From: Alishewanella aestuarii B11
Lineage (GTDB): Bacteria > Pseudomonadota > Gammaproteobacteria > Enterobacterales > Alteromonadaceae
Length of the DNA: 64,000 bases
Direction of reading: 5' to 3'
Assembly: GCF_000280055.1 (NCBI RefSeq)
Contig: NZ_ALAB01000010.1
Location: forward strand, 124,001 to 188,000
Shown here: in pieces, positions 29,424 to 38,651 of the stretch
How the letters are laid out: each line of letters starts with the position of its first letter
How positions within the stretch are numbered: the stretch's first letter is position 1
Program-made: the position numbers and the translations under genes
The notes under the pieces: generated by a model
What the model was told of the DNA's origin: nothing
Database searches by the model: none
What the model saw: the letters and a program-made list of their open reading frames with translations, nothing else

Positions 29424-29577
29424 TACAGGCTGGATCCGAGAACTTCGTCTAAAGCTACTATAGCAACTTTTTGCCTTGAGTTAACCGGGCAGGATCAATA
29501 AATAGGCGATTGCGCACTAAATCGGTACTCTGCATTTACCACTTTGTTCAAGATCTTGCGGCCAGAAGGATATTTTC
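29424..29577. other. spacer between the receiver/TPR gene and repeat A
   Basis: No coding potential. It includes TCTGCATTTACC (29529-29540) followed by a GTTCA-AGATC stretch homologous to 30288-30335, so the tail of a B element precedes A copy 1 although the rest of that B is missing. Confidence 0.6.
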
Positions 29578-29737
29578 CGTGATGCCTCACCGATATTAGT
29601 TAAGCTCTTAGCTGCGGTAGAATTTTCGTAACAGCAGCAGGGATGCTGCGGAGGCTGAAAGGGCACAAGGATGTGATCCTTGAAGCCGGTGGAGAAAATT
29701 GCTACCCAGCTAAGGGCGCTGCGCTGGTCTTGACGCT
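29578..29737 (+). repeat. long dyad repeat A, copy 1
   Basis: About 160 bases, beginning CGTGATGCC and ending GCGCTGGTCTTGACGCT. The outer stem joins CTTAGCTGCGGTAGAATTTT to AAAATTGCTACCCAGCTAAG (ends of the element). The interior holds GCAGC-AGGGAT-GCTGC and CAC-AAGGAT-GTG hairpins. It differs from copies 2 and 3 mainly in the first 25 bases. It lies downstream of nothing obvious: the receiver gene starts at 29423 on the other strand. Confidence 0.85.
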
Positions 29738-29750
29738 GTAGAGTCTAAGG

Positions 29751-29951
29751 CAGTGCATCCGGCGGTAATCATTCCGTACAACTTTGACGGGACACGCTGT
29801 GAATACATCCCTGTACGGTTACAAACTTCATCCTGAAGTTTGCCCTACGGGCCAGCTAAAGCTGTTCAAATTTGCTCCCGGCAAATTTGTGTCATTTTTC
29901 ATCCCTGAAAAATACATTCCCTTACAAAGTGCACGGAATGCTTACCACCTC
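29751..29951 (-). repeat. hairpin cluster B, copy 1
   Basis: The spacer between A copies 1 and 2 contains at least four hairpins that on the minus strand expose GGA in the loop: stems at 29822-29842 (loop AGGAT), 29867-29889 (loop CGGGA), 29895-29912 (loop AGGGAT) and 29804-29815 (loop AGGGAT), the last nested in CCGTAC/GTACGG (29774-29818). It shares the order GTGCATCCG, CCGTACAACTTT, CATCCCTG with copy 2. Confidence 0.7.
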
Positions 29952-29983
29952 GTCTTATATCTGCTGTTCTCTATGATATTTTT

Positions 29984-30138
29984 CGTGATGCCTATCAGAT
30001 ACTATTTAAGCCCTTAGCTGCGGTAGAATTTTCGTAACAGCAGCAGGGATGCTGCGGAGGCTGAAAGGGCACAGGGATGTGATCCTTGAAGCCGGTGGAG
30101 AAAATTACTACCCAGCTAAGGGCGCTGCCCCAATCTCA
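29984..30138 (+). repeat. long dyad repeat A, copy 2
   Basis: Outer stem 30009-30032 with 30101-30126 (about 22 pairs with two small bulges). Hairpin GCAGC (30040-30044) AGGGAT GCTGC (30051-30055). Nested stem GGCT (30059) to AGCC (30093) enclosing AAGG/CCTT and CAC-AGGGAT-GTG (30070-30081). Almost identical to copy 3 through the GGCGCT end. Confidence 0.85.
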
Positions 30139-30173
30139 ACGCTACTGGTGCTCATCGTTACGCAGGTTCTATC

Positions 30174-30305
30174 TCGGTGCATCCGTCGGCTAAACGCGCC
30201 GTACAACTTTCCTGGGGCACACCGTGAACCCATCCCTGGGGGCTCCCCTTTCGCATCCATGCGAAAGACGTCCCCAGAAAAGTGTACTCTGCATTTACCG
30301 CCTCG
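30174..30305 (-). repeat. hairpin cluster B, copy 2
   Basis: Same order of blocks as copy 1 (GTGCATCCG, CCGTACAACTTT, CATCCCTGGGG), plus a perfect stem CTTTCGCATCCATGCGAAAG at 30248-30267 whose minus-strand loop reads ATGGAT, and an outer CTGGGG/CCCCAG pairing. It ends in a TCTGCATTTACC tail also found before A copy 1 (29528). Confidence 0.7.
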
Positions 30306-30335
30306 TTCACGATCGTGCCGCCAAAAGTATATTGT

Positions 30336-30495
30336 CGTGATGCCTATCAGATACTATTTAAGCCCTTAGCTGCGGTAGAATTTTCGTAACAGCAGCAGGG
30401 ATGCTGCGGAGGCTGAAAGGGCACAGGGATGTGATCCTTGAAGCCGGTGGAGAAAATTACTACCCAGCTAAGGGCGCTACGCTGGTCTGGACGCT
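30336..30495 (+). repeat. long dyad repeat A, copy 3
   Basis: Same structure as copy 2; the block from CGTGATGCCTATCAGATACT through GGCGCT is essentially identical. It then reads CGCTGGTCTGGACGCT, matching the end of copy 1. Spacing from copy 2 is 352 bases and between copies 1 and 2 is 406 bases. Confidence 0.85.
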
Positions 30496-30571: not shown

Positions 30572-30612
30572 TTCAGACAGGCAAAAAGCCAAGAGGCCGG
30601 TATTGTAACAAT
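30572..30612. repeat. left arm of 41-bp inverted repeat around the tRNA-Val array
   Basis: Complementary at 40 of 41 positions to 31047-31087. It lies 10 bases downstream of the last tRNA-Val 3' end (minus strand) and contains GGCTTTTTGCC on that strand, which could help end tRNA transcription. Confidence 0.88.
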
Positions 30613-30622
30613 TGGGGGAACT

Positions 30623-30699
30623 TGGTGGATTGTACTGGGTTCGAACCAGTGACCCCCGCCTTGTAAGGGCGGTGCTCTCCCAGCTGAGCTAACAATCCA
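30623..30699 (-). tRNA. tRNA-Val (anticodon TAC), copy 3
   Basis: A 77-base cloverleaf on the minus strand: acceptor TGGATTG/CAATCCA, D arm AGCTCAGCTGGGAGAGC, anticodon stem CCGCC/GGCGG with loop CTTACAA (anticodon TAC), T arm with GGTTCGAACC, and encoded CCA. Identical in all three copies. The first pair is U1-A72 rather than the usual G1-C72. Confidence 0.95.
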
Positions 30700-30723
30700 T
30701 GGGAGTATCGTAAATAGGAGCTT

Positions 30724-30800
30724 TGGTGGATTGTACTGGGTTCGAACCAGTGACCCCCGCCTTGTAAGGGCGGTGCTCTCCCAGCTGAGCTAACAATCCA
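30724..30800 (-). tRNA. tRNA-Val (anticodon TAC), copy 2
   Basis: Identical to the flanking copies; separated by 24-base spacers that share GGGAGTATCG at the copy-proximal end, which points to recent tandem duplication of a unit of 101 bases. Confidence 0.95.
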
Positions 30801-30824
30801 TGGGAGTATCGCTGTGTAGAATAT

Positions 30825-30901
30825 TGGTGGATTGTACTGGGTTCGAACCAGTGACCCCCGCCTTGTAAGGGCGGTGCTCTCCCAGCTGAGCTAACAATCC
30901 A
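30825..30901 (-). tRNA. tRNA-Val (anticodon TAC), copy 1 (promoter-proximal)
   Basis: First tRNA of the minus-strand operon, 16 bases after the -10 box. Three tRNA-Val genes divergent from gltX match the E. coli valUXY/gltX arrangement; the lysV that follows in E. coli is absent here. Confidence 0.95.
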
Positions 30902-30917: not shown

Positions 30918-30945
30918 ATTATAGGGAGCGTGATTTAGCTGTCAA
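30918..30945 (-). promoter_or_regulatory. tRNA-Val operon promoter
   Basis: On the minus strand TTGACA (30945-30940), 16-base spacer, TATAAT (30923-30918), both perfect consensus. The following GTGCGCC is a GC-rich discriminator typical of stringently controlled stable-RNA promoters. Confidence 0.9.
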
Positions 30946-31046: not shown

Positions 31047-31087
31047 ATTGTTACAATACCGGCCTCTTAGCTTTTTGCCTGTCTGAA
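31047..31087. repeat. right arm of 41-bp inverted repeat, within the gltX leader
   Basis: Partner of 30572-30612 with one mismatch (31070). It ends 11 bases before the gltX ATG, so the gltX 5' UTR includes this arm. Its inner edge reads TGGATTGTTA, the same ten bases as the tRNA-Val 5' end. Confidence 0.88.
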
Positions 31088-38321: not shown

Positions 38322-38453
38322 GCAGAAGTGTTCTCCGAAGTTGCCGTGCCCTGTATCAGCCCTTGAACCCAAGGTTCAAGGCGGAACGCCAATGGCCACC
38401 GTAGGCTTCCCGGTACTAGCCGGGCCTGCACAAAAGCGACGCAGAAACATCCC
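38322..38453 (-). ncRNA. ssrS: 6S RNA
   Basis: On the minus strand CGCCTTGAACC...GGGTTCAAGGG (near 38352-38377) is the diagnostic 6S block (E. coli ACCTTGAACCAAGGGTTCAA). It is followed by a GC-rich side and TTCGGAGAACA, and preceded by GGGATGTTTCTGCG; the ends TGTTT and GAGAACA can form the closing stem. 6S mimics an open promoter and sequesters sigma-70 RNA polymerase in stationary phase. Identity is supported by position directly before fau. Ends are estimated to within about 15 bases. Confidence 0.85.
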
Positions 38454-38651
38454 TTAATAAAACAATTATCGGCTCAGGGACATCGACAAAACACGAACAA
38501 CCCAGAGAACGCCCTCAGTATAACACTGCTTTTACGCCGTTGAGAACAAAGCCCGGCAAAAAGCGGCTAACTGCTGCTTGTTTAGGCACAGGTTGGCGTT
38601 GCCCTAGAGCAGTGGTAGCATAAGCACAGAAAAGAAACTGAGGGGCAAGAT

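Follow-up and report, generated by a model that had tools for sequence, protein, structure and literature searches.

Dispersed hairpin repeats with paired ANGGA loops, predicted sites for CsrA, form an array in Alishewanella aestuarii B11

What are the long dyads that lie at 29.5–30.5 kb of the window, the whole 64,000-nucleotide stretch of Alishewanella aestuarii B11 DNA analysed here? We conclude, with little room for doubt, that they are dispersed repeats of the YPAL/TwoAYGGAY kind. They come in two types, A and B, of which B is the widespread, YPAL-type form. We think it somewhat probable that both are MITE-like repeats of one gammaproteobacterial superfamily, whose transcribed copies offer predicted bivalent sites for CsrA. 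The window lies within contig C10 of a 3.59 Mb genome in 43 contigs. Covariance models were built from A (R1) and from B (R2, built without Yersinia); the element cores in the models span 84–119 nt, and the arms are longer. The features, in window coordinates, are these.

29602..29720, plus strand: A element copy 1 (core); loops 29639-29644 (AGGGAT) and 29667-29672 (AAGGAT); R1 142.0 bits at C10:153602-153720; fold z -4.3
30008..30126, plus strand: A element copy 2 (core); loops 30045-30050 and 30073-30078 (AGGGAT); R1 147.2 bits; 144-nt identity with copy 3
30360..30478, plus strand: A element copy 3 (core); loops 30397-30402 and 30425-30430 (AGGGAT); R1 147.2 bits
29755..29957, minus strand: B element, long form; several GGA-loop hairpins, loops 29807, 29830 and 29901; R2 match 29779-29858, E 4.7e-7; outer limits by eye
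30180..30325, minus strand: B element, short form; loops 30255-30260 (ATGGAT) and 30232-30237 (AGGGAT); R2 match 30204-30286, 83.2 bits, E 1.4e-25; outer limits by eye
about 29536-29577, strand unassigned: probably the 3' end left from another B element, ahead of copy 1; within direct repeat D1; resembles B-element ends
30918..30945, minus strand: sigma-70-type promoter of the tRNA-Val genes, perfect at 12/12; read-through would give the minus strand of the array

The first-pass annotation had described three copies of a long-stem element with two interior GGA-loop hairpins, and these are present at the positions it gave. The three direct copies of A keep a 202-nt register (starts 29536, 29942 and 30294), and each has a 23-pair closing stem and the hairpins GCAGC-AGGGAT-GCTGC and GCAC-A(A/G)GGAT-GTG. 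The near-identity noted for copies 2 and 3 is complete over 144 nt (from 29983 and 30335), while copy 1 matches copy 2 at 116 of the 119 core positions and differs at 3. The sequence between the copies, on the other hand, had been called unrelated, and this was wrong. The spacers are two B-type dyads with their GGA loops on the minus strand, so the array runs A-B-A-B-A.

Beside the array, a 41-nt inverted repeat (98%; 30572-30612 and 31047-31087) brackets three tRNA-Val genes next to gltX. Its copy at 30572-30612, absent from the sister genome G016, looks like the leader of gltX, duplicated beyond the tRNA genes. Across the genus the number of tRNA-Val genes in this gap (30626-30900 in the window; L080-L108) ranges from one to seven, and several relatives hold degenerate tRNA-Val remnants there. 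The window also encodes an ordinary 6S RNA (38328-38511, minus strand, 119.5 bits).

How well do the elements fold? A single A copy folds at -67.7 kcal/mol, compared with -51.8 (s.d. 3.7) for shuffled sequences (z -4.3; 0/200), and the whole array stretch gives a fold z of -9.8. Compensatory substitutions, which had been named in advance as support for a structured RNA, are abundant in A. In its alignment 94.7% of the paired cells pair, versus 72.4% in shuffles (71 distinct rows), 38 of the 43 pairs are altered on both sides, including all 23 of the outer stem, and the covariation score is 0.569 versus 0.169 in shuffles. The exact figures lean upward, since the rows, eight of them B-type and two poor, had been fitted to the model. 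The covariation signal is lost when partners are slid by 1–3 columns. The corresponding figure for paired cells in B is 96.1%; its outer palindrome is longer (median outer stem about 33 bp) and very regular, with few G-U pairs. Cells holding G-U outnumber those holding A-C by 190 to 10 in A (61 unique elements) and by 16 to 3 in the outer stem of B, an excess which indicates that the GGA strand is the folding strand.

If the elements are repeats, how widely are they dispersed? A non-autonomous-looking repeat family had been suggested at the outset, and both BLAST and covariance-model searches bear this out. BLAST of the genome finds 19 matching places, the window's own included; three are intergenic gaps in an acyl-CoA/branched-chain degradation gene cluster (L009) that, by reading of its genes, looks like a liu operon. 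R1 has 13 strong matches in this genome and 1–13 per genome in all 31 of the 31 genus genomes searched. Searches of six other genera of the family gave no significant match, and the weak R1 matches in two genomes of the order proved on inspection to be B-type. A is thus a genus-restricted subfamily, having no close match outside the genus in the genomes searched. B reaches much further. R2 has 13 matches in this genome and finds B in 52 of 276 sampled gammaproteobacterial genomes (48 of 216 genera). These model searches, several of whose per-genome counts are lower bounds, give 24 to at least 150 B copies in eight genomes of the class, 150 being the scoring cap; Stenotrophomonas maltophilia D457 has 106, Xanthomonas euroxanthea 149, two Rheinheimera 41 and 43, and Ectothiorhodospira 1. 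Phages gave no B match and plasmids no A match. A copy count per genome had been proposed as the means of separating a dispersed repeat from a locus-specific RNA, and the counts come down on the side of dispersal. Of 125 B matches (L114-L231), 29 fall within predicted ORFs of more than 200 aa; the use of a simple ORF caller on GC-rich DNA probably accounts for this, though some may be real coding insertions.

The history of this locus can be read from a comparison of 29 genomes at the orthologous gap, which runs from the response-regulator gene to tRNA-Val. In the nearest sister, G016, the gap holds a single A element that shares the flank of copy 1. No A is present there in the next relative, G004 (86% identical protein), or in any of the remaining genomes compared; two of them, G010 and G023, carry B-type dyads in the same gap. 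The array therefore began with the insertion of one A element, to which this lineage later added two B-A units: the elements at this locus are recent insertions with array growth. An empty orthologous gap was found, its flanks too diverged to show a target duplication. Other copies are old and retained. The gaps at dut, slmA, dgkA and pyrE (names from reading translated ORFs) hold A copies in many members of the genus, and the orthologous dut–slmA and dgkA–pyrE copies have kept their pairing through double substitutions.

What do the loops have in common? The suggestion that they resemble CsrA sites was sound: they are predicted sites of the ANGGA type, in line with the published CsrA SELEX consensus, RUACARGGAUGU, for which hairpin loops are preferred (PMC4347634). 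Among the 61 unique A elements, ANGGA is present in loop one of 57 and, as read from the alignments, in loop two of 60. Loop one with its closing pair reads CANGGATG, in which N alone is free, though the stems vary; in B, entire stems are swapped between copies. The window's A loops are AGGGAT or AAGGAT, and ATGGAT loops occur in other copies. Of 61 A elements, 43 contain the 10-nt SELEX core ACARGGAUGU, as do 53 of 141 B elements; among 40400 shuffles only 7 do. These counts are not independent, since copies of a family share descent. The two loops are 22 nt apart in the window's A elements and mostly about 17 nt apart in B; a pattern of two CANGGATG spaced 14 nt, which is the wrong spacing, gave no matches. 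A CsrA dimer is able to bridge two sites at about 17–22 nt.

How might such elements act? The orientation of the copies relative to their genes, taken from a simple ORF caller, offers some guidance. Between co-directional genes, B lies sense in 14 cases and antisense in 28; A is sense in 17 and antisense in 21. This lack of a sense-strand preference speaks against the elements being plain mRNA leaders, and has no bearing either way on a decoy. We suggest that a copy would be transcribed from a neighbouring promoter, at this locus perhaps by read-through from tRNA-Val, which would expose the B loops. The GGA strand would fold into a two-hairpin head, and one CsrA dimer could bridge both of its ANGGA loops. 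Copies might then serve as CsrA decoys spread over the genome, or stabilise RNA locally in a CsrA-dependent way. We consider it fairly probable that transcripts of the elements bind CsrA; that the constancy of the loops is owed to this binding is a more tentative proposal, and we put it at rather below an even chance.

Might mobility alone keep the loops? The hairpin head could be a transposase or recombinase site on single-stranded or cruciform DNA, with CsrA playing no part, and a loop read by a transposase would also be conserved. Such a DNA-level repeat would sit well with the insertion and array growth between sister genomes at this locus, with loads that reach at least 150 copies per genome, with B palindromes so regular (median outer stem about 33 bp) and so poor in G-U, and with the absence of sense-strand bias; for YPAL, target duplications and empty sites have been reported (PMC2229807). 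Mobility by itself, however, does not require that the dut–slmA and dgkA–pyrE copies be kept genus-wide with compensatory changes. Against it, too, the loop is free at exactly the position at which CsrA is free, and it matches the SELEX consensus. Nor are the elements known to have a partner transposase. We regard this explanation as possible, though on the unlikely side.

A hairpin that works in RNA, stabilising or ending the upstream mRNA and owing nothing to CsrA, is unlikely. The positions of the elements speak for it: B lies in 26 convergent gaps versus 6 divergent ones, and many A copies sit within 50 nt of an upstream stop codon. Such a role has been proposed for YPAL (PMC2229807) and for other bacterial MITEs. 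Yet it leaves unexplained why ANGGA stays constant amid the exchange of stems, and a scan of the array for intrinsic terminators gave one weak match, no more than expected by chance, and no T-run.

Does CsrA have another candidate RNA partner in this organism? A single csrA is present (C5:268013-268168), as in each genome of the genus. One A and one B element lie about 0.8–1.3 kb downstream of it, past three tRNA genes; in G023, too, an A and a B are present in the corresponding region. Downstream of csrA in two species (L012:4740-4860 and L022:1900-2140) there is a tRNA-Arg-like relic into which GGA-type hairpins seem to have been inserted. A CsrB-like RNA lies elsewhere in the genome (G000:C28:51207-51521; RF00018, below threshold, E 4.2e-6), and most genus genomes have a single CsrB-like match. 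The repeats are thus not the sole candidate sponge. Since the A and B loops of the window lie on opposite strands, no single transcript displays all of them. Several GGA-loop hairpins and strong folding would suit a dedicated CsrB-type sponge RNA gene at 29.5–30.5 kb, but such a gene is highly improbable: nearly all relatives lack the array in the orthologous gap, a separate CsrB-like RNA is present, and the sole internal promoter match scores 9/12, with total matches near chance. A discrete sRNA gene was rejected on the same grounds, and no promoter–terminator pair delimits the array. Of the earlier suggestion of a CsrA-sequestering RNA, the resemblance of the loops to CsrA sites survives; a locus-specific sponge is not supported.

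How do the elements compare with known families? At its thresholds no Rfam family was reached by the array. Like REP/BIME and ERIC, A and B are dispersed intergenic palindromes that favour convergent gaps. REPs, however, are palindromes of 20–40 bp with a GTAG or CGTC tag (PMC3733652), a definition outside which A and B fall, being about 120–200 bp long with constant apical loops. We found no literature linking CsrA with repetitive extragenic elements and GGA hairpins, and a 2025 REP survey mentions neither the genera that carry these elements nor CsrA. With CsrB, RsmY and RsmZ the array shares repeated ANGGA-loop hairpins, with multiple GGA motifs in loops, in an organism that has csrA. Those RNAs are single dedicated genes with their own promoter and terminator, whereas the array lacks a clear promoter and terminator and a conserved locus.

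The resemblance to TwoAYGGAY (RF01731, clan CL00106) is closer. There too an outer stem encloses two ANGGA-loop hairpins in fixed order, and A covaries. In a permissive search the three A copies match TwoAYGGAY over its full length (1-168) at 31.7–32.7 bits, below the 43-bit gathering threshold, and this genome has no match over that cut-off. The window's loops, AGGGAT and AAGGAT, differ from AYGGAY, as do the apical stems and the junction. We do not file A as a member because both the threshold and the loop rule fail. Conversely, over-threshold TwoAYGGAY loci in relatives are matched by R1 (E 6e-6 to 8e-6) and, in one case, by R2 (E 2.8e-6). TwoAYGGAY is listed as a probable RNA of gammaproteobacteria and Clostridiales (PMC2864571), and its binding of CsrA has been proposed on motif matches alone (PMC4333381).

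YPAL/RU-2 of Yersinia (De Gregorio 2006; PMC2759123, PMC2229807), likewise a family of dispersed, multi-copy, intergenic palindromes, shares its core with B, and of the two types with B only: a GGA-loop hairpin and GAGCC-(ANGGA hairpin)-ACGGCGTC, within a long palindrome. The apical sequence of A is different and the flanking arms are wholly different. The RU-2/YPAL sequence of PMC2759123 contains the B core and aligns over 167 nt, with 86% identity, to a copy in Yersinia proxima, which R2 scores at E 7.5e-13. The Y. proxima element is also covered by Ysr224 (RF02770; L237:375-481, minus strand, 94 bits, threshold 70). Ysr224 is modelled on the opposite strand, so its loops lack GGA; being the complementary strand of a YPAL-type repeat, this family may describe a mobile repeat.

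The R1 and R2 models cross-match with TwoAYGGAY and with Xanthomonas, Alteromonas and Yersinia copies, and from these cross-matches, with the shared YPAL core, we assign A, B, YPAL and TwoAYGGAY to one structural superfamily, although the shared loops and topology could be partly convergent. Were transcripts to bind CsrA, the cell's pool of CsrA sites would depend on how many mobile repeats it carries, a number that varies widely among related species. A bolder extension, which we hold to be improbable as it stands, makes YPAL, TwoAYGGAY and A one mobile superfamily whose shared function is the capture of CsrA by a selfish repeat, a distributed reservoir that would shift the level of free CsrA; bivalent modules would then be spread across gammaproteobacterial genomes, some of which would carry hundreds. 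What is new and testable is the bridge between YPAL, TwoAYGGAY and CsrA-type loops, with A as a new genus-specific variant and CsrA as the predicted ligand. Since 2010 TwoAYGGAY has stood as an RNA of no known function, and the origin of YPAL, a mobile repeat, has been unclear since 2006. Their shared architecture and constant, CsrA-type double loop turn these two open questions into one.
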